Assembly: GCA_027972325.1 (NCBI GenBank)
Contig: JAPMOS010000053.1
Span: 124,001-188,000 of the forward strand
Length of the DNA stretch: 64,000 nucleotides
Source: Paratrimastix pyriformis
Lineage: Eukaryota; Preaxostyla; Paratrimastigidae
Reading direction: 5' to 3'
The position numbers were made by a program, and so were the translations under genes. Shown in pieces: positions 3,898 through 59,516 of this stretch. Position 1 is the stretch's first letter. Every line of letters begins with the position of its first letter. The notes under the pieces are model-generated. The model did not search any database. It was not told the origin of the DNA and saw only the letters and a program-made list of their open reading frames with translations.

Positions 3898-4733
3898 ATG
3901 GTCGAACACGGAGCTGGGATGGAATGGCGCGTTTTTTTCGCCAGGAACTCTTTCCCAGAATTGGACGCTCGCTCCCTTTTTGCGGCCGAGCTTGACGGGC
4001 GGCAGGATTTTCCCATTGAACATCGAATCGATAAATACTACTGTGCCACTGAAGATGTGGGCATCAAGTTGCGCGGGGAACGTAAGTTGGAGATGAAGGT
4101 ACGCATTGACGCGTACGTCCACCCATTTTATTCGATCTTCGATAGGTATGCCTCGGGCGTTTCCCGTCACGGGTGGAACAATGGACGAAAATGGGCCTCT
4201 CTCGGGGACCTGGCGCACCACTGAGTAGCGCCCTTGAACCTTTCAAACAGATGCGCCCAGTTCAACACGCACTCTCCAGTGGTCTGCTGCGACCTGCCCC
4301 CCCCCGTCACTATCACCATGCCTTTTCCTTTTGCCCTCGTAGCACATCTTGCGGAAGGGTTCGAGCCGCCAATGGTCACAACGGACAAGCACCGCTTCAA
4401 TGTGGGGATCGCAGGGTGCTCGGTCGAGCAATGCGACCTCACGGTCACGGTGGGCCCCACCCAGCAGGCGCTCGCCCCGTACCGGTCCGCCCAGGCCGGC
4501 ACCTCATCGCCGGCTGACCTGAGGCCCCCACCACGCACCACCACAGGTCGTTCGCCATCGAGGGCCCCGACCGAGCGGCCGTGGAGCGGCTCGTTGGGAC
4601 CCTCTGCACACGGCTGCCTCCGGCCTTGACCCACCCGACGGCGACGGAGGGGCAGCCGGCCCTCGGCCAGGGCATCATGGGCTTCCCGGCCTTCGTCGTG
4701 GCCCTCGAGCAGCAGGGCCGGCAGCAGCACTAA
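3898..4733 (+). CDS. Small conserved-looking protein, 192 aa, 4 exons
   Basis: Exons are 3898-4116, 4251-4281, 4343-4484 and 4547-4733 (TAA at 4731). The exon lengths sum to 579 nt, and all phases agree (0, 1, 2). Donors are GTCCAC, GTCTGC and GTCCGC; acceptors end CAG, TAG and CAG. The N-terminal third reads MEWRVFFARNSFPELD, then a stretch with IDKYYCATEDVGIKLRG and KLEMKVR. Later come VGIAGCSVEQCDLTV and, in the last exon, SFAIEGPDRAAVERLVGTLC and GFPAFVVALEQQ. Charged strands with a GIKLRG...LEMKVR pattern recall CYTH-like triphosphate-tunnel proteins, but I cannot confirm this and assign no function. It converges on the minus-strand gene ending at 4794, with 60 bp between stops. An upstream start is possible, but 3898 is the first ATG in a sensible context. 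Confidence 0.65.
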
Positions 4734-4793
4734 GGGGCGAGCATGGCGGCGGGTCAAATCACCGCTGTACACAATCGTATTCGTGTCTTCCAA

Positions 4794-6325
4794 TCAGAGT
4801 CCATTATCGGCACTCCAGTGATCCGGCAGGTAGCGGGGAGCCATCGTCTCCACGAAGTGGCGCCGCCAGCGCTGGATGAAGTGCACCAGGGCGGGGAAGG
4901 CAGAGGCGGCGAAGTCGACATGCCAGAAGCTCGTCGCAATGCGGTCGAGGGCCTCGATCGAGTCGGCACGGAGCAGCCGGGGCAGCTCGGGGGCGCCGCT
5001 TGGGGGAAGCCGTTCCGAGCGGTGACGGCCTTCGCCGGGACGGGGCGCCAGGAGCGCAGGGTCGGCCCCGGACTGTGCCAGGAGGCGCGTGATGACGGCC
5101 TGCCCGTGGGGAGTGACCCCGTAAAGGGCCCGGAGGCGGTCTGGGTTGGCGACCTCCCCCAGCCAGGCAGTGGGGACCTCGGCAGGCTCGTGCACGGCAT
5201 CCAAATCGGCCCCGGGGCTCCGTCGGTATGCGTCCCAAATCTGCTGCTCGAGGGCCGCGACGCGGGCCGCCGGCAGGGAAGAGAGCTCCCCCTTGCGGAC
5301 GCGCAGCAGCACTTTGGCGCTTTTGCAGAGCTCGGCCAGGGCGAGCGGGAAGGAGGCCACCCTCCAGACGGCCGGCTCGCCCTTCCCTCGGTCCTCTGGC
5401 GACTCGGCTTCGATCGTCGCAGTTGGTGGCGCCGCCGGAGGCGGGCAGGGAGTGGGGGCGGGAATGGTCGGGGGTGCGATGCCTGGCGACGGCGTGGTGG
5501 GGGCGGCTTGTGGCGGGGCAACATCCGGGCCGAGGCTGAGGCCCAACTCGTGGGCGATGGTTGTTTTGAGGCAGTCCGCGTGCTGTTCGTAGCGCTCGTG
5601 GCAGGCGTGGCACAGCAGCACCACGTCATGGGACAGGTGGGCCTTCAGGGCATGAGGGAAGTAGTGCCGATAGCTGGGCCAGTCCGGGAGTGTGGTGAGA
5701 GGATTGAAGGGTGCCATCGGCGATGGCAACGAGAGCAGCCCACGGGGAACCGGAGCAATACAGACAGGTAGGGGACGATATGGTGTTTCGTGAGGGCCGT
5801 GGGGCCAGCAGGCGAGCTCTCGTCGTCCCCGTCCGTGTCGTCGTCGCTGGGCCCCGATGAATCGTCGCTGCCCCCGTTGTCCTCGTTCTCACTCTCGTCC
5901 CTGTTGTCCACCGAAGGAGGTGATTTTGATGAGGCCGATGCCGCGGTGGGAGGAGCCGTGAGCCCCACCCCACAGCACACACAAATATTGTCCCGCCAGC
6001 CCATGTCGTAGGCAGGAGCTGTTGTGGCCGCTGCGCCCCGTTCCGGGTGAGATGGGCCCTGGGCTGGCTGCCCATGATCCAGCTGTCCCTCTGTCGATTG
6101 GGCCGCCGCGCGGGCTGCGAGAGCCTCTTCCATACCGCGGGGACGCACCAACAGTTGCACCAAATGGCGGGCGTGGGGCGGCGGCTCCTTGGTGATGGCG
6201 CTCCCATCGGCGGGCATCAACAGCACCCGCAGCCGGCCCACCATGGACTGGGCAGGCTCTGCAGCCAGGTCATGTGCGGTCTCGTCTTCCATGGCTAGGT
6301 AATGCCGTGCGATGCCTCGAGTCAT
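4794..6325 (-). CDS. HNH-like zinc-domain protein, about 479 aa, 2 exons
   Basis: Exon 1 is 6325-5766 and exon 2 is 5673-4794. The 92-nt intron begins GTCTGT and the joined length is divisible by three. The middle of the protein carries an HNH/zinc signature: CVCCG, then an acidic Ser/Asp-rich insert, then LTKHHIVP, then across the splice YRHYFPHALKAHLSHDVVLL followed by CHACHERYEQ. That is Cys-x2-Cys, His-His and Cys-x2-Cys-His in the order expected for an HNH fold. The C-terminus (FIQRWRRHFVETMAPRYLP) resembles the end of EXD2-like proteins, which pair a DnaQ-type exonuclease with such a C-terminal region. No exonuclease domain is visible upstream. Cleavage of nucleic acid is possible but unproven. 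An in-frame ATG at 6292 is an alternative start (468 aa). Confidence 0.65.
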
Positions 6326-8315
6326 GTACCACCGAGCCTACCGAGGAAGAGGGTTGCAGTGGTGGGCAGCCATAAGCGCACACCTTCTTTGCGGAAACCC
6401 GCGCCAAGGGGACTCCATCCGGAGAAAAGAGCAAGATGTTGTCGTACTAACAGAGAGCGGCGGTGGTCGAACCGGCCGGGGTCGGGAAACGACCGACCTG
6501 GAGGGCCGCCTTGCCCGTGGAGGGCCTCGGGGTGGACCGGCTGCTGGGAGACGCTGGTGTGGGAGTAGACGAAGGCAGAGAGTCAAGGCCAAGCGCTACA
6601 CGGCGAACACACTGGAAAAGCTGACTTGTGGCAAAATGTCGAACGACGGACGAGATGATCTGGGGAGAGTGCTAAAAGATGCCCGCAGCTCGTGCTGACA
6701 ATCTCCGCCAACGAAGAGACGGTTGCCTTGAGCTTGACCATTTTGGGAAATTCACATATTTCCTGTAACGCAATGACTGGGAGAAAAGAAGGTGAAGAAA
6801 CACGGCATATCAAGCATCATGGACACTTATCTTCTCGTTTCCCCTCGAGGTGTTGCAGATACCCATCTTTGGTGAAGTTGTCTTCCGAGAAAAGGTGTTC
6901 GAGTGCTTTCCGAAGTTTTGTGGCCATCGGCCGGCGGCGGCACCAACTTGGGGTGTCAGAAACCGCTATTCCCGAACTTGTCACTTTTCTCGTACTTGTC
7001 ACTTTTCTGTTAAATTTTCTGTTAAAGTCTCCACGAAACCCGCATTAGGACGGCACGCATGAGAAAGAGAAATGGGGGTGGAGAAAAGACCCACAAGTCA
7101 TGCTGACGGTTAACAAGCAGGAAGACGGACCTGCCGAGTGACCAAGGGTTGTTGGCCATTGAAGTCGCGAATAGGTGGTCACTGGGGTACAATCTTTCTT
7201 TATTCCTTTCTTGGACCATCTCTTTTTCGTTTTGATCCCGTATCGCCCCCCTTAATGTGCCTAAGAATTGGAAAAACCCCATTTTGACGCCCTTCCGGTC
7301 TCCACCACCTCCCACCCGTCCACCGAAGGCCCAACCTGAATTGCGCAGTATAAAGAGGCCGAGTGGGGCTACACACAGGTATCTTGGGTTCCCTCCGGGG
7401 GGGGTCGGGGGGATGGTGACACCACACAGAACCATCGAGGGGTCATTTGGTCTGGAGACCAAATGGGTTTGGTCCGTTATAGGATGGGGGGATGCAGCCG
7501 TCGGGTCGACGGGGGCCGGGGGGCCGGGGGGGAGGAGGAGTGGTGTGCTGAACGCGAGGAGAGTTGGGTCTGCCACTCGGCAGGGTGTCACGTTTCGAGT
7601 CGATCAACCATGTGACCCCCCGGGCGGCCACCTCCCCCCGATGCGAACCCCTCGATGGGGGCGATCCGGAGCGGACCGCCTCTTTCAACCATCGCACTCG
7701 TGAGCCCTCAGCCCCGAGACCCTGCCGGAGGATCAGTGGCAGATTGCACCCTTCACGAACCCGGACAGGGTCGTGACGATGGAGCAGGGGGTGCGAAAAA
7801 GTTGACAGGGGAGGCGAGGTCCGGGCCAGCCAGGGGGCGCGGGCGGGGTGGCCGGGCTTCCCCCGGGCACCGAGGTGAGGGGAGCCTCTAGTGAACGCGC
7901 CGACGGGGGCATGGGCCAGGAGGTGGGCCGAGTGATGACCGACACCCTCAGGACGACCCCGCGGTATGGCACCGGGGCAAACTCCGAGGGACCCTACAGC
8001 GGGGGCCGGGAAGTCAATGGTCTTGTCTCGCAATAATGTAGCAAGGGTGCCTTCCCTCAACGCACCGAGGGTGTTTGGGCTCCCCTGCGAAGCACCCGAG
8101 CCGCTTCGCGGTCTAAACCTGATATCGACCATCGATGTCTTGTGTGGTCGCGGGTCGGACTCGATCACCGCGGATCAATTTCACCTTATGTCCGTTCGAG
8201 AAGACCACGAGGACGGCCGAACGCCAAGAGAAATTTCCTTTCCGGCCCCTTCGAACCGGCTGAATGGCGGGCGCAACCCTGTCAAAATTTTGAATTTTTC
8301 AAAACCTTAGGTACA
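6326..8315. other. 2-kb intergenic stretch without a recognised gene
   Basis: Neither strand shows a convincing exon series, homology or splice pattern like that of neighbouring genes. Base composition is mixed, AT-richer near 6.7-7.1 kb. Visible structures are a tandem CTTGTCACTTTTCT-like duplication at about 6980-7020 and a short palindrome at 7444. The right half is GC-rich and may be decayed repeat DNA belonging to the transposon island that starts at 8316. Confidence 0.5.
7444..7465. repeat. Perfect short palindrome
   Basis: CATTTGGTCT and AGACCAAATG are exact reverse complements separated by GG, giving a 10-bp stem. No role can be assigned. Confidence 0.7.
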
Positions 8316-8332
8316 TTAACCCCGTGGAGCCG
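8316..8332. repeat. Left terminal inverted repeat with TTAA
   Basis: TTAA at 8316-8319 is followed by CCCCGTGGAGCCG. It matches the reverse complement of 17910-17926 at every base. Confidence 0.75.
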
Positions 8333-8334
8333 GA

Positions 8335-8360
8335 GTCACTGCCACAAACGTGGCAGTGAC
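8335..8360. repeat. Subterminal hairpin, 11-bp stem
   Basis: GTCACTGCCAC, loop AAAC, GTGGCAGTGAC. It lies 3 bp inside the left terminal repeat. A near-identical hairpin occurs at 10540-10561, so it is a shared module and not chance. A tRNA B-box-like GGTTCGAATCTC follows at about 8369 and also near 10399. Confidence 0.7.
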
Positions 8361-8414
8361 TGTTCGCGGGTTCGAATCTCGAGAATCGCCGAAAGGCTGA
8401 AGAACCCGAGAGCC

Positions 8415-9092
8415 ATGAGGTGTGTGATGGTGATCCCATACGGATCTGGAATGCCAAACAAAGACGGGGTGGAGACTGGATTGGATATTATCCGTAAAGC
8501 GATCGTAAAGGGAAAGATCGACGCGGTGGTTCGGGAGATTGCGGTGTTTGAATCAGGGACCTTCAAGTTCTGGCGAGCGAATTTCTGGAAAGACGGAGTC
8601 AGAGGTACGGGGAATGCCCCATGGGCGGTGGGAGTAATTATGGTGGAGAATACTGTGTGCGAGGAGAAATTCCCGGTGGATGAAGAAGCCTTTGTGAAAA
8701 TGAAAGGAATGATGACAAGGCAGGCAGGGTTGCGTGGGGTTCAATTTGGAGAAGTGGGTAGACGGGGGAAGAACTGTACTATCATTGCAAGGGAAGTTCG
8801 GAAGAAAGTGGCGAGGAGGCTCGAGTGTCTTTGTAATCCGAAAGCCTATTACAAAGGAGAGTGCGAGCTGGCGGCGGAAATGGGAATTCTGGATGTTTGG
8901 ACAGAGAGAGAATGGAAGAAGGCAAAAATAAGCACGAAAAAGTGGGGAGAAACTTTCCGGATTGCGCAACCGTCGAAATGGGTACAGGAAATCGCCCATT
9001 TTCGACCAGCCCCCCGGGGTGCCCCAGTGTGGTGCTGGGTGGCGAGCTCTCGGTGCGGGGCACCTGGGGGCCAAAACCAGGTGGGGCGGTGA
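8415..9092 (+). CDS. Uncharacterised ORF inside the piggyBac-like element, 225 aa
   Basis: From ATG 8415 the frame is open to 9092. The first 190 residues look protein-like: charged, Lys-rich,  with few low-complexity runs (for example MVIPYGSGMPNKDGVETGLD and WTEREWKKAKISTKKW). The GC content is much lower than host genes. The last 40 residues run into the repeat modules and look non-coding. No transposase motif or known family is recognised. It could be a remnant of a transposon gene or an accidental ORF. Confidence 0.3.
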   Translation: MRCVMVIPYGSGMPNKDGVETGLDIIRKAIVKGKIDAVVREIAVFESGTFKFWRANFWKDGVRGTGNAPWAVGVIMVENTVCEEKFPVDEEAFVKMKGMMTRQAGLRGVQFGEVGRRGKNCTIIAREVRKKVARRLECLCNPKAYYKGECELAAEMGILDVWTEREWKKAKISTKKWGETFRIAQPSKWVQEIAHFRPAPRGAPVWCWVASSRCGAPGGQNQVGR

Positions 9093-10300
9093 CCAACGTG
9101 GGTGGGGGTGGTGGGCAATCGGCATGCCGGTGATGGCGATGCCCAAAACCGGAAGGTGATCTCCAAAAGAGGGCTCTGGAGTGATCAAGAGACCTATGCC
9201 AGGATTCAGCCCGTCGGGCTTTGGGGCTTCATATTCCTGCCCAACTCTGGAAAAGTGGGCGCCATCACTTGATGCTCCCGTTGGGGAGCGTCAACTTGTG
9301 AGATGGAAGTCCTCACACAATAGAAATGGTCTCAGAAGAAAAGACCTGCTCCAAAAAAACCCCGACTCACCAAAAGCGCGCCCAAACCCTGACAATTCAA
9401 AAAATGAGGCGCCGCTCCAACCTCACGGATCAAGAAGCTCTCTTTCGCGTCGTGTTTTGGTTTGGCCCAGCGGGTTGTGAAACAAAAAGCGAATGGAAAA
9501 CACCACAGACGATGAGAAAATGAACGTGATAATGGGATTGTGCACAGAAACAGGCACAGAAAGACGACATGGTGGGCCCGTGGCAATGCAGTAGAAAGGG
9601 CAGGCAATGAACCCTGTCGAGGCATAAAATAAGATGATCTATTAATATAACTCGGAAACATGCGCCGCGGAGAGCCAACCACCCTCAGAAGATCCCAAAG
9701 AGTGGATTGGTTGAAAAACTTGAACGGTGACCGGCAAAAACGCTCCAAGATAGAAAAAACGCAACAGAAGCCACTAACAGCTGATAAGACACCCGCAAAG
9801 ACCCTCGGAAAGGCGGAAGTGAGGCCCGAACTCTCTTCCGGGAAGAGCCAAAAGCGCACAGTGGTGAGAGCGGCTATTTTTTTGGGGCGCGTTTCTGTGG
9901 TGGCTTTGGCGCCCATTTTCCCGTGGCCTGGTTGGGAGGGGCCCCATTTTCTCATCGGGGATGAAGTTCCCCTACCAGAGTGCGCATCACTCCAGAGGGC
10001 TTTTTTGGAAAAGGTCCGGGAAAACCCCATCTGACGGAGATGGGCATTCACTTTCACCCACACCCACCGCGAGTCCAGGCTCGCTGCACCAGATGGGGCA
10101 TCTGGGGTATGTCCCGGTTTGTTTGGGTGGCCCGTTTGGGCCCCTGGAGGTGTCCTTCCCAAAAGGGGACACCATTTCGAACGTTGGTGAGCTGAGACCG
10201 ATCTCCCCTGAGGGGGGGTCAGAGCCCACCCTCCCCGAAAAGGGGAGGGAGGGTGTGGGCTGAGAGGGCGCTGTACCCGCCAAAGGGCGGGCCAGCGTCG
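8950..10300. repeat. Left arm of a large imperfect inverted repeat
   Basis: Read on the opposite strand, this arm matches 10780-12062. Examples are shared translated strings such as MSSFC.CF...QKRAS/RKRAS and ASPGSLHQMGH versus ASSGSPHQIGH, and nucleotide blocks around CTGTACCCATTTCGAC. Identity is about 70 percent by eye. Confidence 0.6.
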
Positions 10301-10539
10301 GGTGGTCAGGGGCCTAGGCCCTGGGCCGCCAATGGGAGCCTGCACCTGCCCAGTAATCTCGGTTTCTGGGTTGGGTTTGATTAAAAAAAAAAAAAAGGTT
10401 CGAATCTCGGCAACGGATCGGAATTTTCCGACCGGGTTTTCGGGGGACCCCTCTCCGTGGTCTGGTCTCGCTCCCTTTTCAAAGTGGCCATCGGCACTCA
10501 AAAGCTCCGGTGCCGGCGAGACTCACAACTGGGGGACCC

Positions 10540-10561
10540 CACTGCCACATTTGTGGCAGTG
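10540..10561. repeat. Hairpin in the centre of the inverted repeat
   Basis: CACTGCCACA, TT, TGTGGCAGTG. Same stem as the subterminal hairpin at 8335. It lies in the roughly 480-bp spacer between the two arms. Confidence 0.7.
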
Positions 10562-10779
10562 AATTGGGGGCGACAGTGCTCCACGACGGTACAAGATTTT
10601 TTGACCGGGTAAAAAAGCGGGACCCCTCCACATCCCCCAGAAAACAAGTTTACGCAGGGACATGGCCCTGGGGTCAGAGGGGCGGTGGTCCGGCTCGAAC
10701 AGGCCGCGCAAAGGAAGAGGAACGGGGGGGGCATGGGGGACGTGAGCGGGGGGCACAATCGGGGCTCCGCACGGCCCGG

Positions 10780-12062
10780 CGCGGCCGAGAGCCTTGTTCC
10801 CCGGTGCCGGGCGCACCGTCGGTCGAAATGGGTTCCCATTTTGGGATTGGCCCGGACAAGGGCCCAACTGACACCCCCAAACAAAAAGTGACTATCCACA
10901 CATGTCCAATTTGGTGCGGCGAGCCTGAGCTCGCATTGGATGGGGGAGAAAGTGGATGACCGACCGCCATCTGATGCCCTTCCGAGGGCCGTTCCAAAAA
11001 AAGGCTCTGTGGAGCACTGCTCCGCACTTGGGAAACATCATTCCCAGTGCCAGAATGAGCCCATTCCCAACCGATCCCCGGGAAAATCGGAAGCAAAAAC
11101 AGGCCAAACCGAGCCCGGAAAAAATAGCCGCTCTTCCCCCATTGGTAACTTGCGCTGCGACGGGATGCCTCTTCGACGGCTCTCCTGCGGCTCCTCACTT
11201 CGTTGACGAGGCATTTTATTAGGGTTTCATATCCTCAGTGATCTTATGTTTTGCGGAGGTGTCGCCGCTCGTCGATTCGGCCTTTTAAGGATCATCCACA
11301 TCTTTGGCATGTTCCGAGGATGATTGGCCTATTTAACGTATGTTTCCGAGTTAGGTCATTCTGCAATAGGTTTTTCTGCTTGCGTCGCGGATCAGATGCC
11401 CACCGTTTAATGCATTGCCGCCGGCGCTCCATGTCGTCTTTCTGTGTCTGTTTTCTTTCACAAAACAATCACCGTGGTGTTTTTCTCGGCCTCGCCGATG
11501 TTTTTCACGGGATTGAACTTTCCCACCACGTTGTGCACAAAAAAATGCTGACTCAAAAGCGAGCTTCCTGATCCGCGGGGTTGGAGCGGCTACTACTTTT
11601 TTTGAATGGGGAGGAATTTTGCAGGGCTTTTGGGAGTCAGGAATTTTCGATGATGGAATTTATCAGGTGCCACCACTTCCTCGTGTAAGGGGCATCCATT
11701 CCATGAGATGTCACATCACACCTCCTCCATCTCATTGGATTCCAACTTTTCTGAGAATGGGCTGTTTTTTGAGGCCCACTTTCCTCCTCCCGTTTATTTG
11801 GGTATCAGGTTCTTGCGCGCTACAGAGCCCTCTTTTTGAATGAAATTCCCACACCCGCCATCACCGCGGATGCACATGCACTTTGTCACACAGCACCCCA
11901 CGGCGGCAAGCCAGCGGGTCCCGGTCAGCAAACTCCAACATCCTGCCCCCTCAGCTCGCACGGGGTGGCATGGGTTTGGGCACCCGGGCAGCGGTCCCCA
12001 AAAGGGGAAACTCGCTGTACCAATTTCGACCGACGCTCAGCGCAGGTGAAATCGGTCTTGAA
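10780..12062. repeat. Right arm of the large imperfect inverted repeat
   Basis: Inverted partner of 8950-10300. It is followed by about 100 bp of element sequence and then by the insertion site of the Ty3/gypsy element. A small module (CCCAAAA GGGGA ... ATTTCGA) occurs here in both orientations, so part of the repetition is also direct. Confidence 0.6.
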
Positions 12063-12165
12063 GCGATGGGGCACGTGGAACTGTGCCCTGCACCGCTCCC
12101 CACCGCGGGGCACGGCCAAGTGCCAAGCGCTTGACCCCGACTGTGGAGGACGCCAAAGGGAGTCT

Positions 12166-12250
12166 TGTGCGTGTTAGGCGTTTGGAATAGGAGAGTTCTC
12201 CTGGGTAATATACTCGTGCAGGCACCCTCTCTGCACCCACCCTGCCCACA
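12166..12250 (+). repeat. 5' LTR of the Ty3/gypsy element, 85 bp
   Basis: Identical by eye to 17381-17465. It starts TGTGCGTGTTAGG, ends CTGCCCACA and is preceded by GTCT. Confidence 0.85.
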
Positions 12251-15200
12251 GTATCGATACTGGGCACTTCTCCTTTTTTCTTGATTTCAACTAGTGCCTG
12301 GTAACCGTTACACCATGTCTAGACAGAAATTCGCCACTATTCTTTTGCCGTCGAAGATTCGGAGCATGAAGCCGGAAGCTTTTGTTTCACCTTTGCCGAG
12401 TCTTCCTCGCCTCCGCAACATCTTGAACTTTGAAGAGTGTGTGAGATTTGAGGACACCATCTCACAGACTATTGGATCGATTGATGGCCTTCCTGTTGAT
12501 TTGAGGCAATTGGTCCCTCCTTCTGCGGTGGGTATTCTTTTGCGTTACAATCAACATTGCTTCGATTCTTGTGAAGATCTCTTTGATTCGCTTTACGACA
12601 TCTCTCGACCGAAATCAAATTTTCTCCGAACTCGTCTTTTGGCATCGCTTGTTTTTCTCCTCCACCGACGTCTGAGCAAATCGCCTTCTCACTTGAGGAA
12701 CATATTTGGAAGTTCCTCAGGTTTGTTGATGGGTTGAAGTTCCCGGCTGAGGCCGCCGCGAAGCTCTTTCTCAAGTCTTTCCGCGGTTTCTTTGGCGACA
12801 TGGTCAAGGATGAGTTCCTTGTTGGTTGCGCCGCGTCTCCTTCTTCGGACGATGATTCCTCTTCGTCTTCGTCTGAGGACGAGAAGCCAGCTCCTTTGGC
12901 TTCTGCCACTTCTGTTCCGGCCACTTCTGGTTCTGACCCCGCGGGTACTTCTGCCGGGGTTGCGAAGACGCCTGCCGAACAGGCCGCTCAGGAGCTGGCG
13001 GCCCTGGATCAGGAAACCGAGTTGCATCGAGCGGTCGAGCGCGTGCGCGATCTTGCGCAGAGACTTGACGAGGCTGCAGCGCTCCATCTGTCACGAGGTG
13101 TCACGACCGCTCCTCGCCCCTGTTTTCGGCCACTCCTTCGGCCATGGCCATCACCGTGAACGTGCTTTCGCCGGCCGTGTTCCTTTTCAACCTCCGACTC
13201 CGTCTCCTCCGGCCACTGCCTCGGTCCCCCCGCATCCGACTTCGCGGGGCTCCGTCGAGCGTAGCCGCCTTCGTGACCAGGGGCTTTGCACATGGTGTCA
13301 TTCCCCGGTCATGTGATCTCGGATTGTCCGGGCAACGATCATGGAATTCCCGGACGGAGCAGGTATCATCCTGAGAACAACGGGGCCCCGAGGTTGGCCC
13401 CAACCGTCCACCTGCTCCTGCTCCACCTCCTTCGACGTCTCCAGCCCCTTTGGGTACTTCCACCACATCGGCTCCCACTTTCGGTGGCGGACGGTACCCA
13501 CGCCGTTCGCGGAACCCGGCTCACTTGCGGCTTCTCCAAGCCTGTCCACCACCGGCTGGGGTTCCTGTTGGGCCTGTCACCTCTGTCGTACCGGCTGGCA
13601 CCCCCGCACCTTCAGCTTCTGTTGTGGCCACCACTCCATGCTCTGGGGCAGCTACCACCGCTGTCACTTTCCCATCTTTCGGGAAGCTTGACCCTCAGCT
13701 TACCACAACGGTTGTTGTGAACGGGGTGTCCGCGCCCGCTCTCCTGGACACTGGCGCAATGATTTCCGTTATCTCACCGGCTTTTGCGCATGATCTGGCA
13801 CTACCGGTTGTGGAGGACGGCCCGGTTCGCTCGGTATTGCTCGCTGATGGCAGTCGTACTTCTGTTCAGCGTTTCAGTCCCGTTACTTTGAGGCTGAGCC
13901 CCGAATGCAAGCCTCAACAGGCCGTCTTGTACCATCTGGGTCGTGACCCGTTGATCTTGGTTGGTCTCTCTGAATTGCGCGGGCATGGCCTTGTTCTTGG
14001 TGATACTCCAACCATCACTCCTCTCAACATCCCTGTTGATGATGACGACAACGATCTGGGTGATGATGATTATGGTGGTGAGGCCATTGTGGGACGCTTG
14101 GTTTTGGCCGGTCCCCTTGGTGCTCTTGATTCTGACGGCCAGCCAGATTTGGCCGCCCTTGCTCTTGCTGCTCCGCGCATCGCCACTCTTGCCACTCCGC
14201 CTTCCGGAGTCTCGGAATCCTCGCCTGTGTGGATTGCACCCGCTTCTGAACAGCCTCACCTTGGGAAGGCTGCACCGACCCTTCCTGTTGTTCGCCGTGA
14301 TGTTCTCACCGACCCTGAGGCCCAGCAGGTTACCGACCTTCTCGGCGAGTATGCGCATCTTTTCGGGGGACTCACCTCTTCCCCGCTGTGATGGAGCCTT
14401 TTCGGGTCCAGCTCTTGCCCGGAGCCAGCCCTGTCTCGACCCCTCCCCGGCGTTTTCACGGGGAAAAGGAGGCCTTCGTGAAGAGACAAATTGATGATTG
14501 GCTCTCTGCCGGAGTTATACGTCCATCACGGAGCGTCTGGGCTGCTCCACTGACAGTCGCCCCAAGCGTGGTGGCGGCTGGAGACTTTGTGTGGACTTTT
14601 CTCAACTCAATTCCCGGACTGCTCAGGAGGCTTTCCCGTTGCCGATGGTCAACGATTTGACTTCGGTTTTCGGGGCTGTGGTTACTTGGCCTCTTTTGAT
14701 CTCAGTGCCGGGTTCAATCAAGCGCCGGTGGCCCCAGAAAGCGTTCCGCTGCTCTCGTTCACCTCGAGCCATGGACAATTTGAGTTTCTTCGCCTGCCCT
14801 TTGGAGTTGTTTCGGGGCCCTCCTACTTCCAGAGGCAGACCTCAACCATTTTCTCCAATTTGGCCCGGACGGTTGTCTATCAAGACGACCTGGGTATTGG
14901 AGGACGGGATTTTCCTGAATTCCTTTCTGGCCTGCGACGTGCATTGGAACGAGCCGCACTTCACCGCCTTCGTCTGAATGTCAAGAAGGCCAACATTGGC
15001 CCCAAGGAGTTGTCTTATCTGGGTTTGCTCCTTGGCCCGGATGGGACTCGTCCTGACCCGGAGCGTGCTGCCCCTTTCCTGCAGCTGCGTGACCCTTGCA
15101 ACGTGGCTGAACTGCGCAGTCTTGTGGGGACGATCCAGTACTACATCCCGTACCTCCCTGGACATTACCGTCTTTTGGCTCCGATGCTTCCTCTTTTGAA

Positions 15201-32798: not shown

Positions 32799-34371
32799 TC
32801 AGAGGCCCTCGAGGACCTGCCGGGCCAGGTCCCGGATGCGGCTGTACCGCTGGGGGTTGATCTCGGCCGGCGTCTGGCCCCCCCCCAGCCCCCAGCCCCC
32901 AGCCCCCAGCCCCGCAGTCACGACAGGGACGACCTCATCAGGTGAGCCCAAGAGGGGCCAGTGGGGCGTGGCCAGACGAGGTGCTGGATCCAGAGGGCCT
33001 GCAGGGCGGCCGGGTCACGGTGGTGGCTCTGGTAGGTCATCAGCACCTCGTCGATCTCCTCCCGCACCGCCGACGGCACTGAGGGATGATGGGGGCAGGG
33101 GAGGGAATGGAATGAGTGGGCCAGTGGGCTGATCCCTCGGTGGGCGGGGGGTGGGCGCAGGCCGGACCGCGCTCCATGAGGGCGGGCAAGGCGGCGAGGC
33201 GCTCGAGGGCGGCGCAGAGGGCCACCTGGTGGCCGATGAGCAGCCGCTGCTCGGCCCACAGCCAGTCGCCCTCCTGCTCGGCAGGGGTGCTCTCGGCACG
33301 CCCCGTTTTCTGGCCCGGGACGGGAGGAGGAGCATTGTCAGGCGATGCGGGGATGGGTGGGTGGGGCGACCTCACGGCGGTCGAGGTAGAGGGCGTAGGC
33401 CTCTTTGTCGAGGCTCTCGAATGGGTCCGCCCCCAGCAGCTCTTGGGCCTCCGCCACCAGGGCCTGCAAATGGCCCGCCGGGCGGCGTGGAGAGGTGAGG
33501 CAACCAAACAATGCCCCCCCCCCCCCCCCCCCCCCCACCACCACACAAACACAAACAGACGGCTGTTTGTGGAGAGTGGGCCGTGGTGGGATCAGCCGGG
33601 GCAGGTTCGGCGGTATCGGGGCCCGAGACAGGGGGCGGGGCCATCAGAACCGGGGCCGCCGGGGCCTCAGGCTCGCATTCCGAGTCGGGGGTGCGGGAGC
33701 GGGGCCGGGCGGGCTGCGGGAGGAAGCTGTCGAAGGCGCGGGCCTCGCGGAGGGTCCGCTCGCTCCACTTGAGCAGCTCCTCAGAGAACAGCTTGTACGT
33801 GCTGGTCGCCAGGGGCGGCCCCAGGTGCTTGATCAGCTCGGCCAGCCACCGGGCCACGTGGGGCAGGTTCTTGGACTCGACCAGGTCGTTGGGCCCCGGG
33901 GCGGTGATGTTCAGGTGATACAGAGACTGGCAGGCCGTGAAGAAAAGCCCCACGTTTTCCCGTGCAAAGAACAGGTTCTGCCGGCACGCAGCCACGCTGT
34001 GAATCCGCGCAAAAGCTTCCTGGATTTGCTGAATCTGAAGTGAGTCCTTCAAAATTTTCATCAGTAAAACTCCGTCCCGAAGCGCTGCGCAAGAGAGGGT
34101 GGCAAATCAATGACAACAACAAAAACAAAAAATCGTACGGACCATCAAAAAGAACCGCAGGATCCAAGGATTGGCACTGGTCCACCGAGAGATGTTCACA
34201 ATGTTCTGGATAGCGGCATACCCATTCCAACTAGTTCAATCGGGAGCGTTCAAGAGTTCAAAATGTCAACCGAGTTGTGGGACGAAAATCGGAGCAGCGG
34301 ACAATTTTTTGGCATGTGGAGAGAAATTCATAAGATGCCAGCGATCGCCTTGTTAAAGTGGCTCGGGGCAT
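32799..34371 (-). CDS. CH-domain protein, IQGAP-like CH, 363 aa, 7 exons
   Basis: Exons are 34371-34303, 34230-34143, 34084-33561, 33463-33371, 33309-33168, 33078-32978 and 32873-32799. They sum to 1092 nt with consistent phases. All six donors start GTC. The first 130 residues form a calponin-homology domain: YEFLSTCQKI|LEWVCRYPEH, ALRDGVLLMKILKDS, ENVGLFFTACQSLYHLN, DLVESKNLPHVARWLAELIK. Its start (YEFL...LEWV) and its end (LGPPLATSTYKLF) are closest to the IQGAP type of CH. After a Pro-rich linker come helical segments (LVAEAQELLGADPFESLDKE; QRLLIGHQVALCAALERLAA) and a short tail (YSRIRDLARQVLEGL). No IQ motif or RasGAP-like domain is present, so it is not a full IQGAP. Actin binding is likely but inferred. 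A LINE ends only 55 bp upstream of the ATG. Confidence 0.8.
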
Positions 34372-46000: not shown

Positions 46001-46571
46001 GCGCTCGTTCAGCAAGTCGTTCTGGCGCGCCCGCATCGCAGCGGCGCTGGCCCGCTGGAGCACTGCCATGGAGATGGGATGGGCCCGCGAGGCGACGCGC
46101 CTGCACAAGAGCCTGGGACTGTCCTGCATCAACGTGGCCGAGGACGAGGACGCAGTGGCCCGAGACCCCAACGCGGTGGACGGGTAAAGAGCGAGTTTTC
46201 TCTTCGATTTTGAAGTTTTCCTCTCTCTCCGGCGTTTGTTCCTATTCCCCGGGCCAACACGTTTATCATCGCGCGGGGAAGGTCGCAACTTCCTGTGAGC
46301 CTAGCTTTGGGCCGCATGCGGGCTGCCTGGGATTATCACCGGGCTGCTTGGACCTCAGGTGGCTTGTCGATGGACTGCCCTCAGTCAGAGCGGTATCGAC
46401 ATCGGGGTCTCTGCGGAAGCGGAGGCTTCGAGGCCGTGAGAAAGGGAGGCACCGCGTGAGGCTGGAAACAGAGCAACGAAAACTCCCTGTACTGCCGATT
46501 GGCGAGGAAAACGGTCCTGAAAGCGCACGGAGTCATCCGAGCAGTTGCAGATGGTAAGACTGCAGTTCTTT
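42950..46571 (+). mobile_element. Non-LTR retrotransposon (LINE A)
   Basis: Reverse transcriptase-bearing element in plus orientation. The left limit is uncertain. On the right, the coding part ends at 46187 and is followed by about 380 bp without coding sense, up to where the LINE B fragment starts at 46572. No poly-A or simple tail was found at 46571, so the true 3' end may lie earlier. Confidence 0.6.
43087..46187 (+). pseudogene. LINE A protein: Pro-rich N-terminus plus reverse transcriptase
   Basis: A Pro/Ser-rich N-terminus (about 43.1-43.75 kb) leads into an RT: GGPSGLAPDHIR near 44.25 kb, VAMPKPRGGVRPVAVGEVLV near 44.4 kb, FVSLDLSNAFQ near 44.62 kb, RGLRQGCPCSPPLFA near 44.78 kb, YFDDILLMA near 44.93 kb and FTLNPAKCWVM near 45.03 kb. 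The YFDD box and finger/palm order fit non-LTR RTs. After it, thumb and helical regions run to the TAA at 46185. The frame changes at least three times: once in the Pro-rich part, once at a run of nine G near 45113 and once near 45950. This copy is therefore decayed, largely at homopolymers. No endonuclease (APE or restriction-like) or RNase H is seen. Confidence 0.75.
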
Positions 46572-47248
46572 TTGTGCCGCGCCTGACGTACCAGGAGCTC
46601 CTCGAGCTGTCACTGAGCCCGCTGGGAGCGCCGCAGAGGAAGGGCAGAGAGCCACGGCCGCCGGAGAATGCGGAGGCCAGGAAAAAGCGCCTGGAGTCGA
46701 GGGGCAAGGCCAAGCTGGATGTGCAAAGCCTCTGCCGGCGCATCGGGACGCAGCTGGTGGAGAGCATGCTCGCCCTGTTCGGCATGAGGTGCGCGGCAAC
46801 CATGAGCGGCGGCAGGCGGAAGACCGACGGCAGACCGGCGAGAGCGGGGAGCCGCGCCCCCCCAGGTCGCGCCGCCTAGAGAGCGGCGGACGGATCGCGC
46901 ACACGACGCACCACCCCGACGACACCATCACCAGCTCCATCTTGCCCGGTCGAAGCGATCGGAGCAACGAAGTCCTATTGCCGTCGATCAGGAGTGACGG
47001 AGGCGAGAACAAACGAGACCCGCAAAGAGCACGACGAAGAACCAGGAAGTCAGTGACCATTGACTATCTCCACCGAGCGCTCCCACAGAATTCGAGGGAG
47101 TCAATGCGGATCTGCGATTCGCACGCTTAGTGGACGCGTGTGGCATGCGAGGACTCAGGAGAGTGACAGACTTGAATGTAATAATTCGAGTTTGAATTTC
47201 AACTTAGTCTGCGTGCCGTTGAGGTTGAACACGCTATCTCTCTCTCTC
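46572..47248 (+). mobile_element. LINE family B, copy 2, strongly 5'-truncated
   Basis: It matches the complement of 34426-35103 nearly base for base, from TGTGCCGCGCCTGACGTACC to the CT-rich tail. It encodes the last 100 or so residues of the family's protein (VPRLTYQELLELSLSPLGAP to APPGRAA) with stop at 46877-46879, without the one-base loss seen in copy 1. About 370 bp of 3' UTR follows, then CTATCTCTCTCTCTC. Confidence 0.8.
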
Positions 47249-47250
47249 AC

Positions 47251-48004: not shown

Positions 48005-48145
48005 TGTTCCGGTGACACCTTCCTTGCATGCGGCGAGAATCACCCGTTGGTTGGGTTCGAGTGGCACATGTCAGAAATTCCCCCAACACCCCCGCCGGGA
48101 AAGACCTCCCAGGCCAAGGCCCCGAGTAGGGTTGAGTCACTTTAT

Positions 48146-52666
<4,521 letters not shown>

Positions 52667-52924
52667 ACCACATTCGGTTCGGATACCGACATCTGCGCTT
52701 CGAGCGGTTGGACCACTTGAAGCAGCGGAAATTTCAGCTGTAAGATTGTGTTAGGCCTCTCGAGCTCCTCTCGTTTACTCCGAGAAAAAAATGGCGCTTT
52801 TGAGCGAGTCGACAGAATCTCGTTTGCCTGTGTCTGCGGGTAGAGCCAGAATACATCGACTATCTCAAATTTAGTACCGAACCGAAATCAGCCTCCATTC
52901 CTCTTTCGAACCTGTCTGTAGAGG

Positions 52925-55112
52925 ATGTCGCAGCTACAGAAACCAGGAATGCAACAAGGCAATCCCTCACCACTCCCCGGATCCACTCCCACATCTAATC
53001 CTGCTCCTCAGCAGCCACTTTTGAGCTATCCGCCCTCTCTTCGCGCCACTCCTGTTTCACCTCCCATACCAGCAGCTACCACCCCCGCCCGACAGTCACC
53101 TGCGCCTCTCCCAGTTCAATTCCCTCGGCACACGCCGCCACCGCCACCGCCACCACCACCTCCACCGCCGCCGCCGCCACCACCACCACCACCACTGCCA
53201 CTACCACTACCACTACTACTACCACCGCCACCGCCCCAGCCGTCTCAGCCTCAGGGCGGGCCCGCTGCTGCCGGAGCGGACACGTCGGCCGACGAGGCCC
53301 TGGCGCGTCGGCTGGCGGACGAGCTGGAGCGGGAGTACCTCACCGAGCAGGCCAAGCGCCGAGAGGAGGTCCGCCCCGGGAAGGGCGCCAGGGCCGCGGG
53401 CTAGAGATGATGGCTGGGGCTGATGGCTCGCTGGTTGGTCGATCGGGCGGGGCGTCGCTGCGGCCCCTCACTGCGACCCCCCGGCCCCACCCCCTCCCCA
53501 TGAACGTGCCGCCTGACCCGTGCGGGCGGGGCGGCAGGAGAGCCGCGACGAGGAGTTCGCCCGGCGGCTGGACGAGGAGGAGCGCCAGCGGGACCGCCAG
53601 CGGCGGGCGGCCCGTCAGCAGCAGCAGCAGGCGGCCGAGGGGCTGGCGGCCCCGGGCCCCGAGCAGCCCCCCGAGGCGCCCGGTCTGGTCGCGGTGGCGG
53701 CCGTCCCCAGCGGGGGCCCCGGGACCCGCACCCCCCTGGTGGGCATCCCCGCCCCCCAGCCCCTGGTCCGCACCCGCCCGCCCACGCCACCCCCGCCCCG
53801 GCACAGCATCTCGGCCCCTGGTGGGCACACCCGCCCCGGCTGGGGCTGAGTGGATGGGCGCGGTCACGTGTGGGTCTCTGTGGGCGCAGCCGCCGGGCGC
53901 GGATCCGCCCGAGGGCGCCCCCACCCGCCGCCGCCCGCTGCCGCCCGTCCCGGTCGGGCGGCCCGCCCCTGTGGCCCCCATGGGCCCGCTGACACCCGTG
54001 GGGGGCTCGCTGCCGGCCGTGCTGCGGATGCTGCTCGCCTCGGGGGACCCCGCCCGCATGGGCCAGATCGAGAACGTCCGCCCCGCCCCACGCCACACCC
54101 GCCCCACGCCGCCACACCCCGCCCCGCGCCAATCCTCACTTGCTTCGGGTTGTGGGTGTGGGCTTGCGTGGGCATTGCGTTGCCATCGAACGGCCTCGGC
54201 CTCCCCGGGACAGCAATTGGCGATGGTCTGCCAGCAGACCATCCCAACGGGGGGGGGGGGGCGACCGGTGGTGGCCGGGCCGGGCCGGGCCCCTCACGGC
54301 GTGGCGGGTGGGGGGGTGGGGGCGCTGGGCAGATGATCGCGGCGCTGCAGTCGGGGGCGGTGGTGGTGGAGGAGGATCAGGGCATCAGCCCGGCGTACCT
54401 GCGCCGGCTGCCCACGGCCAGCTACCGGCGCCCCTCAAACCCCGACGCCACGGCCCCAACCCAGTCCGCAGCCCCCTCCCTGCCGCCCGCCCTCCCTCGC
54501 CCGCCCGGCCCGGCCCTGGTCGGGGCGGGTCTGAGCGGCCGGTCTCACTGGACCCATCGCTCGGTCGCGCCCACACGGGGGGCCGTCGCGCAGGTGTCCC
54601 GTCTGCCTGTGCGACTTCGAGGAGGGCGACCAGGTCCGCACCGGCCAGAGCCCCTGCCCGGCCCCCAGCCCGCCAGCCCCGCCAGCCCCCAGCCCCCAGC
54701 CCCAGCCCCCAGCCCCCAGCCCCCAGCCCCCCAGCCCCCCAGCCCCCCAGCCCCCAGCCCCCCAGCCCCGCCAGCCCCCAGCCCCCAGCAAGGAGGACGC
54801 GCCCGTGCCGTGCCGTGCTGCCATCTGCCGGCTGACGCGGCTCGTCTTGGGCTGCCGTGGTCCGGGCCCCAGGTGCGCTACCTGCCCTGCCTGCACCAGT
54901 TCCACGTGGCCTGCGTGGACAAGTGGCTCCTCGAGAAGGCCACCTGCCCCATCTGCAAGCTGCCCCTCCGCGGGCGCCCCGGGGCCGCCGACGCCCCCGA
55001 TGATCCGCCCCCGCCCCCGCCGCCCCCGCCCCCTGGTGCCGGGGGCCACGGACCCGAGGCGGACGGACCCGAGGCGGACCTGCCCCCGGGATATGGCGAA
55101 CCCTTCCAATAG
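52925..55112 (+). CDS. RING-H2 zinc-finger protein, probable E3 ubiquitin ligase, 422 aa, 6 exons
   Basis: Exons: 52925-53368, 53538-53765, 53890-54075, 54333-54463, 54594-54633 and 54873-55112. The total is 1269 nt, phases agree and all donors are GTCCG. The N-terminal half is Pro-rich, with a pure Pro run of about 20 encoded near 53147-53200, then charged helices ([38 protein letters not shown]). The RING is split over the last two exons: [13 protein letters not shown] then [32 protein letters not shown]. This is Cys-x2-Cys ... Cys-x-His-x2-His-x2-Cys ... Cys-x2-Cys, the H2 pattern. It resembles RNF38/RNF44- and RNF111-like C-terminal RINGs. The partner E2 and substrates are unknown. No membrane segment is seen. 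The stop TAG is at 55110. Confidence 0.85.
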
Positions 55113-55550
55113 CCCCGCGGCCCCTCTTCCTGCGGCCCCTCAACCCCACGCCCCATCCGGGGCCTCTCCTCGTCTCCGGTCGCCGGTGTGCTCTCTGCGG
55201 CCACTCGTGCGCCCGTCCCCTTTTGCCTCGCCGGCCCTTTCCTTGGGATGCTCGCCCGCCTTCTTTTCTCTTTCTTCTTCTTGCCAACGGGCCCCACCAA
55301 CAAGGGCGGGGGCGGCGAGATCTCGCCGTGCATGCGGCGCTTGGGAGCGAGGGCCGAACGGCCCGTGCCATCGGCGGTGGGCGGCAGGGAGGATGGCGGG
55401 GCGGCCATGGGGAGCGGCGGCCATGGAGGAGAGCGCGGATCGCAGGCGGGCAGGGCAGGGCAGGGCAGGTTCCTAGGAGCACTGGGGTCGGCCATGGCGG
55501 CCCCCCTGCAGGCAATGCCAGCGGCGGCGGACGGGCGTTCAGTGCGAGGT
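55113..55550. other. Intergenic region between two convergent gene ends
   Basis: 438 bp between the RING gene stop and the CPSF3 stop. It includes a T/C-rich tract near 55260-55290 on the plus strand. No gene or clear terminator is recognised. Confidence 0.55.
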
Positions 55551-58500
55551 TCAGAGCGGTGCCAGCGGGAGCAGGGCCGCCTGGACCCGCTCCAGAATGG
55601 CCTGCACGCGCATCCGCAGCTCGGCGCTGCCGCTCTCCACCTCCAGGTCGCTGATGCCCTCCCCCTCGCCACCCCCGGTGGTCGCCGGTCGGGCGGGGGG
55701 CGCAGGTGGCGGGGCGGGCGCCAGGCGCAAGCGGGCCGTGAGGGCGTCCTGGCGCAGCTCCAACAAGATCGGGCCGGCCACCCCTTCATGGCTCGGGACC
55801 TTGGGCTGGGCGGCCTCGGCCACGAAACGCACCTCATCGAAGTGCTCGCGCAGCACCCGGGCAAGGATGCGACCCTCTCGGCTCTGGGCCTGCACGCGCG
55901 GGAAGAGGTGATTGGTGCGGGAGCGTGGAGAGAAGACGGACCAGGGTGTGAACGCGGCTGTGGGCGGTCGGGGTGGCGGTCGGGGCAGCAGCATCGGGGA
56001 GGAGCTGCATGGGTGCGGCCCCCTCGGGTTCCTCTCCCTGGCCCTGGCGAGTGGGCTCTTGGCTCTTGGCTCCCTCGCCCTGCGGCTGCTCGGCGATGAC
56101 TTTGGGGGCTTCCGCCTCAGGCTGGGAGGGTTGCGGGGCCTGCGGGGTGCGGGGCTGGGCCTCCCCCTCGATGGCGTCCAAGGAGCCCACTGCATCCCGG
56201 TCCCGGTCCATCCGGGCTCGCGTCCGCCGGGCCGCGGCGTGGGGGGCATCGGAGCCCGACCCCGCGCTGGCACTAGGGGCAGCAGGCAGGGCAGGGGCAG
56301 CGGTGGGGAGGTGCAAGGGCCGATCGGTTGGGGCGCAGCCGAGCAGCACCAGCAGAGCGTCGGCCGTCATGTCGGCGGCCGGAGACGAGGCCCACTCGAT
56401 GGCGATGTCGGGCAGGGGCTGCGGCGGGCGCGAGGGGGCGGCCCTTCCGGCCTCGGGGGTCACCGAGGCCCCAGCAGGGGGCTGGCGGATGGAGACGCGC
56501 ACCAGCCCATCCACCTGCGACACGGAGGGGATTCGTCGTCGGCCAGCCAAGACGAAGCCGGACATTCGGACATTCGGGGGGTCGCCAGGGACAGGAGGCG
56601 CCCAGGAGGAGGCGCGAAGGCAAGACAGACCATGAAGCCATCGGGGGCTGGAGCAACCCCCTCAAAGGCGGTCTGAAGGAGGGCTTGCAGAGCAGGTCCC
56701 GTCATAAGGGCGGCGGCCGAGGGGTCGCCGGGGTCGGTGGGTTCCAGCAGTGAGAGCAGCATCGCCCCAGGGACGGCGACGCGGTTCCGCAGGGCCGTTA
56801 CGGAGAGCTCAGTAAAAGTGCTGTCATAATACGCGAGTCAGATGGGCCGACCAAGTCGAAGAGGCGCGCGGGCGAGGCGGACCTGAGGTCTTCGGGGAGC
56901 AGGAGCGCGTGCTGGAAATTGTTTCGCACCAGGAGGCCCTGGACCCGGGCCCCAGGCGCAAGGGGACAATCCGCCAGGCGACCCTGGGCGCGAGCCGCCC
57001 AGCTACCCGGGAAACGGATCCGCACGGGGTTGGCCGTGCTTCCATTGCCGGGCGTGTAGACTTGCATGCCCGGGAAGGTGTTTAAGAGGTGTTGTCGCAG
57101 TCGGCCCATCTCGGTCCGCTCCCCATGCACTAGCGCCTGCGCCCCAGCCCGCCAGCCAAAGTGACGGAGGACTGACATTGGCCACCGGGACCCAGGGACC
57201 GTCACCCTTGCTGCTCGATGGCCTACTACAGAGCAGACCAATCGCATCTGCTGGCAGAGACGAGTGGGCAAGGGAAGCGAGGCGGACCACATGACGCGGT
57301 CGAATGGCTTCGACGAAGCCGGTTGTCTGCTGGCAGTCGGAGTGCGCCGAGAAGCTGATCTGGTCCACGGAGCACAGCCGGGGGACCCGCTCGCCCGTCA
57401 TGGTCTCCACCTCGGTCGGCAGCGACATCAACCGCTGTCCAGGGCACAAGACCCCCCCCCCCCGAGGGGAGCAGCGTGAGATGGGAGTCCTCGGACAGGA
57501 TGGACCAGGACGGCTGGGCGGAGAGGCGCTGCGACCTTGGCCAAGGTCGGCTCGACCGCGTAGCCTGCGATGACGACTCCGTTGATCTCGTTGCTGCACC
57601 ACCGGTCGAAGAGCTCCCGCGAGAACCCATTCTACAGAGCCGGGCAGGGGCGCATGGAGCGAGAAGTTGTTGTGGTTGTGGTGTGCAGTACATCCGGGAT
57701 GTGATGATATGCGTTTTAAAAAAGGCGCGCCGTGTGGGCGGGCGGCGGTATGGACGGGGCGCGCCAGACCTGGAGCATACCAGGGGAAGCCACCACGACG
57801 CAGGGCCCCGTGTCCTGGAACTCGTGCTGCTTGACTTCGCGGATGTACCTGAACTGAAAGGGGTTGCGCAGGTCCGATTCGCGCTGGAGCCGCTCGTTCA
57901 TCATATTGATGTACGTCTACCCGGCCCGCCCGGCCCGCGCAGCCCACGCAACCAGTCGCCCGACCATGACAGAAGTCGGTTGAATCGAAGTCACCCATGG
58001 GGCCACAGGGCGACAGAGGCCGGCGAGCCGAGCGGAAGCGGACCTGGTAGACTTTCATTGACCGGCTGGCCAGCGAGGAGGCGAAGTAGACGGGGATATT
58101 CCGCAGGGAGGGCGTGTCTGCCCAGTACTCCTCTGCCCGCCCGCCGTCGGAAGACCAGAGTGTGGTGAGACTGTGCACTGCTGGGATGATGGGGGACGCG
58201 GACCAAGGATGAGGAGCAGCTCCTGAGCGCGGCCGAGGGCAAAGACGGGGATCAAGCAGCGCCCACCTCGGGTCACGATCTTGGAGACCGCATCTGCGAA
58301 AACAGTCCAACCAGAGATCAAGGGGTTGGCACTGCCGCCACGGCGTTCGGGCTTGGGTTTGGAACGTGGTCGGAGGTGCAGACCGGTGAACCTTTTCTCG
58401 CGCGTGAGGCGCGGTTCGTGGACCTGCACTCCGTACGTCGACTCGACAATTAACACTGCCGGCCCGGGAGCCCGTCCCCGCGAGGAGAAATTTGCAAGTG

Positions 58501-59516
58501 CGGAAACGAGTGCGAGATGAAAACGTGTGACCGAGATGATCACGTCGGAGCGGGCGCAGAGGAATCGACTCACTCGGCTCGGGAGCTTGCGGACCATCCG
58601 GAGAGACGGGCGGCGTCTCGGCGCCCATGAGGTGCCGATCGGAGATCCGGGAGAAGTCCCCCGTGTAGAGAACCTGCACTCACAAAGGTTCGGGCAGGTG
58701 GCCGCCGGAAAAGAAGTGAGCCGAGATAATGTGGTGTGGACAATATGCTCATGGGCCACGGGGTGGGCGAGGAGTGGGCGGGACCTTGACACCGCCGATA
58801 TCGACAAGCCACATGGCGGCTCCCAACACGTGGCCTGCATTGTAGCCCGTCACGCGGATCCCGTTCACTTCGAATTCCTGGCATCCACAGCCGCATCGAG
58901 ACGGGACCGCAACGGGCAGGTAGTGAGCACCATGAGACATACAGCTCGGGCCGGGCAGACCTGGTGGTAATCGACAGTTTCGATCTTGTCGAAAGAGCGC
59001 TGCAGGTCGTGTTCGTTGTAGAGGCCGCTTTCACCACCGCTGACTTGCATGTAGTCTGTCATCATAATTTTGTAGATGGCCTTCGTGGGGTGGGTCATGA
59101 AGATGCGGCCTTTGAAACTGGCAAGCTGGCACCAGAAGGGGTGATGCCGGCAATGCTGTGGGGAAAAGAGACCTTCTCCGTCAAGTACGGAAGAGCGGCC
59201 GAGTGGTCAAGGTGAAAGCTATGAAAAAGGCAGGTGGGTGGCCAAGGTCGAAGATGCTGGCGGACTGGGTGATCAGAACAAGATCAATTGAGGCCGGGTC
59301 GATCTCGTCGAAGAAGGGCATAGCTCCAATGCCCGATTTCGCGGGATGCACGCCGCAATCGAGAAGAACTCGCCGAGACTGATACTCAATCAAAATTGAA
59401 GAACGGCCCACTTCTTGGCCTATTATGTTAATGATGAATCGAAATCAAACTGACCACCATGATACTATTCGACCTGCTCCGATTGGTTTGACGGTGAGGA
59501 TATTGGGATCCGTCAT
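55551..59516 (-). CDS. CPSF3: CPSF73 endonuclease of the pre-mRNA cleavage complex, 858 aa, 16 exons
   Basis: Exons: 59516-59474, 59419-59266, 59218-59173, 59125-58961, 58877-58785, 58673-58595, 58455-58384, 58293-58204, 58132-58044, 57916-57770, 57631-57536, 57434-57288, 57136-56883, 56820-56631, 56514-55942, 55889-55551. The sum is 2577 nt with all phases matching; all 15 donors start GTC. The protein opens [20 protein letters not shown]. Metallo-beta-lactamase motifs are complete: HFHLDH across exons 2-3, [53 protein letters not shown]. The beta-CASP part has [25 protein letters not shown] and the final metal His in [10 protein letters not shown]. The C-terminal CPSF73/100 domain is present. 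Length exceeds animal CPSF3 (about 684 aa), mostly through exon 15. It cuts pre-mRNA before polyadenylation and histone mRNA 3' ends in the nucleus. Confidence 0.93.

Follow-up and report, generated by a model that had tools for sequence, protein, structure and literature searches.

The start of an intron is recognised by U1, a small RNA whose 5′ end is normally almost invariant. The canonical major (U2-type) spliceosome removes GT-AG introns with G at −1 and +5 of the donor, and its U6 and U2 small nuclear RNAs (snRNAs) carry the boxes ACAGAG and GUAGUA, respectively. The same features were found in Paratrimastix pyriformis, of which a stretch of 64,000 nucleotides (positions 124,001–188,000 of contig JAPMOS010000053.1, G000:C445; referred to as the window) was analysed here together with searches of the whole 56.06-Mb assembly (495 contigs). 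It differs from the canonical system in that positions 5–6 of U1 are AG where the canonical U1 has UU, and in that donor positions +3 and +4 are C and a pyrimidine where the canonical donor has a purine and A. The sampled donors, the 5′ end shared by all eight U1 genes, the failure to find a normal U1 end anywhere in the assembly and the unchanged contact boxes of U6 and U2 make it appear very probable that this is an ordinary U2-type spliceosome whose initial recognition of the intron follows a new code, the U1 end having changed and the donors having shifted to match.

Several described systems are comparable. In Saccharomycotina, donors with U at +4 likewise represent a lineage-wide shift beside the U6 contacts, but U1 and U6 are kept: U1 ACUUACC was invariant in 227 yeasts and nine outgroups wherever U1 was found, U6 ACAGA was invariant, and adenosine in place of pseudouridine at U1 position 5 was raised only as a possible compensation (PMC10581693). 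The adenosine hypothesised there is what P. pyriformis U1 has at this position. In Fritillaria borealis, too, the intron ends depart genome-wide from the standard, but the 5′ end of U1 is strictly conserved although most introns leave the GT/AG rule, and the reported changes lie in U2AF and snRNA methylation (PMC13326754). In the diplonemid S. specki, one U1 gene likewise departs from the usual 5′ end (a run of C); however, this odd second U1 accompanies a normal U1, and the two are similar in their pairing with a canonical donor logo (PMC12621601). In Eurytemora affinis, a U1 variant, C8-to-U, has likewise been put forward as the counterpart of a donor change, but it concerns one of five potential U1 genes, is hypothetical, comes with no genome-wide rule and is also found in a human pseudogene (PMC7072748). 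ACUUAC is retained in U1 of Giardia and of the Guillardia nucleomorph, the U1 motif is fully conserved in the Bigelowiella nucleomorph, and Stentor U1 reads ACUUACCU (PMC3510501, PMC6461891, PMC9505925). None of the Giardia, nucleomorph, Stentor, diplonemid, Fritillaria and yeast cases is a genome-wide replacement of the U1 end, and no precedent for a changed U1 end as the general rule of a genome was found in the literature, most subscription papers and preprints being outside the scope of that search.

The donor consensus of Entamoeba is GTTTGT, with a pyrimidine at +3 as here, and GTTTGT donors occur in P. pyriformis too. The two differ in that no matching U1 is known in Entamoeba, where no U1 was identified (PMC8876499).

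Donor sequences in the window and across the assembly

Eleven genes (two in the window and nine outside) were aligned by a spliced aligner of genomic DNA against protein, which was run in two modes, one requiring GT..AG and nothing else and the other without any splice-site rule. The protein references were human sequences, of which two of the 11, CPSF3 (full, 684 residues) and PRPF8 (residues 301–2335), were compared with PDB. The GT-AG mode yielded 97 candidate introns, of which 55 were kept and 42 dropped by a flank rule (at least 3/8 identical residues on each side of the intron and a length <1000 nt). The mode without a splice-site rule placed 144 introns, many within poorly conserved stretches, and agreement between the modes was counted up to shifts yielding an identical spliced product.

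Donors beginning with GTC were confirmed as the general rule, in the window and beyond. Position +3 of the 55 kept introns was C in 51, T in two, G in two and A in none; +4 was C in 31, T in 20, G in three and A in one; +5 was G in 47; and +6 was C in 26, T in 20, G in seven and A in two. The GURAGU donor of U2-type introns was therefore not what was found (A and G at +3 in 0/55 and 2/55, A at +4 in 1/55). U12-type donors read RTATCCTT, a form shown by none of the 55 kept donors in this mode, in which GT was required. The introns did have the GT...AG ends of U2-type introns, but these ends were imposed in the main mode; the aligner without a splice-site rule reproduced 31 of the 97 junctions (29 GTC and two GTT), comprising 26 of the 55 kept, every one of them GTC, and five of the 42 dropped (three GTC and two GTT).

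Outside the window, 36 introns were kept in nine genes, with C at +3 in 33, T in two and G in one. All 15 introns of PRPF8, which lies on another contig, started with GTC in the GT-AG mode, one being removed by the flank rule, and GTCTGT is also the start of an EF1A intron identified by visual inspection of the sequence. The two donors with G at +3, one in CPSF3 and one in PLS3, each belong to an intron close to the C-terminus that ends in a GAG acceptor; they were left in the counts and may be alignment artefacts. Thus, the claim of the first-pass annotation that every donor is GTC was found to hold for nearly all introns tested, though not as a strict rule genome-wide, since GTTTGT donors were seen in EIF4A1 and PGK1. 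A contaminant contig as the source of these donors was rejected, the 11 aligned genes being located on six contigs and the eight U1 genes on eight.

Donors were further obtained independently of homology from a hidden Markov model of coding and intron sequence, whose training was begun with all GT equal and for which reversed sequences served as control. Trained only on 200 kb taken from seven further contigs, the model showed C at +3 in 199/316 introns after 10 rounds and was still climbing; once the window and the PRPF8 region were included, the count was 375/445 after 25 rounds, compared to 35/261 for reversed sequences treated by the same procedure. Among the window introns of the self-trained model with flank scores >4, 53/54 had C at +3. 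GTCTGT was shown to be the most over-represented GTNNGN hexamer in the 200 kb elsewhere (295 observed vs. 188 expected, z 7.8), and GTAAGT was found there as often as expected (7 vs. 7). The window is richer in GC than the 200-kb sample, and GTCCGC was weakly over-represented in it (100 observed vs. 85 expected). Enrichment for a branch point yielded chiefly G-rich words.

Model introns of at least 110 nt (n = 166) were C-rich at the start and richer in G toward the end, with C and G at fractions of 0.49 and 0.23 in the 5′ part (+9 to +48), and of 0.38 and 0.30 in the 3′ part (−48 to −9). Short tandem repeats that are open in frame were observed in several introns (PRPF8; window 51100–52300), and the gene model takes them as coding. 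A PRPF8 piece of 1068 residues scored about equally against human PRPF8 (1948.5 bits) and against 8xi2 (1926.6 bits), a Chlamydomonas structure. The EF1A gene (G000:C461:38401–39900) did not contain the insertion that marks opisthokonts, so the organism is presumably no opisthokont.

U1 genes and their pairing with the donor

A search with the Rfam U1 family (RF00003) detected eight U1 genes on eight contigs, and all eight begin with AUACAGACCUUG and not with the normal AUACUUACCUG, reading ACAGACC where the family has ACUUACC. Two letters are changed, positions 5–6 being AG in place of UU. The longer 5′ sequence common to all eight genes is ATACAGACCTTG; the predicted mature end is AUACAGACC, the normal counterpart of which is AUACUUACC. 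Each gene matched positions 1–166 of the model (E 7.1e-13 to 3.8e-10), and a search with the U1 body allowing up to 3 mismatches returned the identical eight. The normal 11-base end, ATACTTACCTG, had no occurrence on either strand of the whole assembly, compared to 57 for the same word written backwards as a control.

The sequence CCCATAA was present at −59 or −60 of all eight U1 genes, at −58 to −60 of eight fetched U2 genes (the U2 search gave 10 matches, one of them partial) and at −66 or −67 of four U6 genes. Because CCCATAA also precedes the U2, U6 and U12 loci, the eight U1 loci look like ordinary snRNA genes, and they are presumably expressed. The ACAGAG box was kept in all four U6 copies found, which were identical to each other and normal around GAUACAGAGAAG, and the GUAGUA branch-site region was present in 8/8 fetched U2 copies. 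Of the changed U1 or U6 recognition proposed from the window, the U1 part was borne out (8/8 genes with the new end and none with the normal one) and the U6 part was not (4/4 normal). In addition, a U12 snRNA candidate was found at G000:C432:103343–103517 (− strand; 44.9 bits, under the gathering score) with GAGUAAGGAAAAU intact, which suggests that a minor spliceosome is present. CCCATAA is located 61 bases upstream of this candidate, making it a promoter-like element common to U1, U2, U6 and U12 loci.

The U1 5′ end is complementary to the donor, as in U2-type introns: AUACAGACCUU in U1 matches AAG/GUCUGUAU (the slash marks the start of the intron), with C+4 and C+6 mismatched. The check named beforehand was for a U1 whose 5′ end could pair with GTCYG, and all eight genes have such an end. 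The GTCYG consensus itself was right as to C at +3, but the perfect complement of this U1 is GUCUGU rather than GUCCG, and U at +3 is accepted as well. Duplexes with the 55 donors had a mean energy of −7.66 for the U1 end found here and −3.46 for the normal end. When the 16 possible dinucleotides at U1 positions 5–6 were ranked by duplex energy, GG came first, the actual AG second and UU fourteenth.

These data support the changed U1 recognition put forward in the first-pass annotation, and on the predicted pairing the following mechanism is proposed. The 5′ end of U1 would have switched from AUACUUACCUG to AUACAGACCUUG. G6 would then select C at +3, and U by wobble, which would explain why GTC predominates, why GTT turns up now and then and why A and G are rare at this position. 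A5 would pair with U+4 and favour U there, and A3 would pair with U+6; positions 7–9 (ACC) would still read G/GU, and C4 would still read G+5. Donors genome-wide would have moved from GURAGU to GUCYGY, U1 and donors probably having changed together in this lineage. From the lowest to the highest third of intron GC content, T at +4 was found in 31/80, 10/80 and 6/81 introns, and C at +3 in 65/80, 70/80 and 72/81. In our reading, C at +4 and +6 may be tolerated and driven by GC bias, whereas +3 would be under selection.

Alternative explanations and the relation to U6

Some observations weigh against a re-coded U1. The commonest base at both +4 (31/55) and +6 (26/55) is C, which mismatches U1 A5 and A3, and GG at U1 positions 5–6 would suit the donors better than the actual AG, because C is frequent at +4. 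GTCTGT showed no over-representation in the window (29 observed vs. 26 expected), and among all 97 candidate introns +3 was C in 81, G in eight, T in six and A in two. The U1 matches scored 50.8–60.2 bits, all under the RF00003 gathering score of 69.5, and since scoring covered the best 41 of the 992 U1 candidates, a further divergent U1 may exist outside these 41. Finally, a PF06220 search of the assembly brought up no intact exon for U1-C, which like LUC7 contacts the helix between U1 and the donor; an intron could hide it. The sole PF06220 match (G000:C86:24809–24916) is presumably WBP4 and not U1-C.

The low scores and the 41 scored candidates would also fit eight loci that are pseudogenes or variants, the working U1 being a divergent gene outside the set found. 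This is barely credible, as the eight copies on eight contigs share the same 5′ end, a promoter element and full-length family matches, their end fits the donors, and the assembly nowhere contains the normal 11-base end. A mutation bias toward GC might have put C at intron starts, a normal U1 tolerating it and recognition being unaltered, and C at +4 and +6 was indeed found to increase with intron GC content. However, C at +3 was high in all three GC classes including the lowest, which led us to reject GC bias as the only cause; moreover, a GC-rich genome could retain GTG, yet G at +3 is rare, and the missing normal U1 end likewise makes this explanation exceedingly improbable. A modification of U1 A3 and A5 (e.g. 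to inosine), by which C as well as U would be read at +4 and +6, would agree with the presence of both C and T and with purines being scarce at +4 (4/55) and less scarce at +6 (9/55), but the share of C tracks background GC, so that tolerance and mutation bias are enough without it, and such a modification is considered very unlikely. That the change at +4 stems from a loss of METTL16 was rejected: the assembly has a METTL16-like gene, which matches Methyltransf_10 and carries an NPPF motif, so that loss of the U6 methyltransferase does not explain the donor shift.

For the preferred reading, a changed U1 end with donors to match, U6 may be a specific source and is no competitor to it. ATACAGA in U1 is identical to U6 positions 37–43 over seven bases, and with the U6 box unchanged and the U1 end altered, AUACAGA is common to both RNAs and GUCUGU is complementary to both. 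U6 contacts the same intron bases once U1 has left. The identity over seven bases, together with U6 being unaltered in the 4/4 copies found, suggests that U1 came to match U6, either by copying from a U6 gene or by two substitutions favoured by U6; we regard this adoption of the U6 code as a tentative explanation, conceivable though somewhat doubtful. In one report, +3, usually A or G, is described as interacting weakly with U6 G44 (PMC11732430), and C+3 could form a Watson-Crick pair with this base. However, just two base changes suffice, so that copying would look the same as chance or selection on U1 alone, and C, the commonest base at +4, fits neither U1 nor U6. Possibly, then, the donor is read twice by one seven-base word (AUACAGA), the hand-over from U1 to U6 swapping identical pairings. 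If true, donor choice would be set by one code, in which U1 follows the lead of U6.

With all detected U1 copies and the donors altered, this lineage would represent a natural experiment on the rewriting of a code used at very many sites, and also on which of the two RNAs, U1 or U6, dictates the donor. The lineage would be mis-annotated by gene finders built around GTRAG, as well as by the Rfam U1 cut-off.

Introns and other features of the window

In CPSF3 (− strand) and KATNAL2 (+ strand), for which conserved family sequence across the junctions had been claimed, 19 of 28 candidate introns passed the flank rule and 18 of these 19 were GTC, in agreement with that claim. The sole non-GTC intron kept in the window is GTGCTG (55659–56349, GAG acceptor) at the C-terminus of CPSF3, which is probably an artefact of the alignment. 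The GTC introns of both genes, and one of a RING-finger gene, are as follows:

49973..50294, + strand: KATNAL2 intron, GTCCGC...CAG; spliced alignment, kept
50403..50506, + strand: KATNAL2 intron, GTCCGC...TAG; kept, junction also from the rule-free mode
50659..51012, + strand: KATNAL2 intron, GTCCGC...CAG, within SKWRG/DSEK; kept
51084..51335, + strand: KATNAL2 intron, GTCCGC...CAG, within TIFL/DELD; kept
51426..51609, + strand: KATNAL2 intron, GTCCCC...CAG; kept, junction also from the rule-free mode
51721..51929, + strand: KATNAL2 intron, GTCCGC...CAG; kept
54634..54872, + strand: RING-finger gene intron, GTCCGC...CAG; flanking exons join to zf-RING_2
57137..57287, − strand: CPSF3 intron, GTCCGC...CAG; kept
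57435..57535, − strand: CPSF3 intron, GTCGCA...CAG; kept, junction also from the rule-free mode
57632..57769, − strand: CPSF3 intron, GTCTGG...TAG; kept, junction also from the rule-free mode
57917..58043, − strand: CPSF3 intron, GTCCGC...TAG; kept, junction also from the rule-free mode
58133..58203, − strand: CPSF3 intron, GTCCGC...CAG; kept
58294..58383, − strand: CPSF3 intron, GTCTGC...CAG; kept
58456..58594, − strand: CPSF3 intron, GTCCGC...CAG; kept, junction also from the rule-free mode
58674..58784, − strand: CPSF3 intron, GTCCCG...CAG; kept, junction also from the rule-free mode
58878..58960, − strand: CPSF3 intron, GTCTGC...CAG; kept
59126..59172, − strand: CPSF3 intron, GTCTCT...CAG; kept
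59219..59265, − strand: CPSF3 intron, GTCCGC...TAG; kept, junction also from the rule-free mode
59420..59473, − strand: CPSF3 intron, GTCGAA...TAG; kept, junction also from the rule-free mode

The spliced translation of KATNAL2 with intron 50659..51012 removed matched Pfam AAA (E 1.8e-38), and the exons flanking the intron of the RING-finger gene, another of the genes resolved earlier, joined into zf-RING_2 with an E of 3.2e-15. The gene at 32799–34371, which belonged to the same earlier set, showed no Pfam match at E 1e-5. A signal recognition particle RNA gene is located at 46273–46570 (+ strand), with a full-length match to Rfam Metazoa_SRP (119.8 bits).

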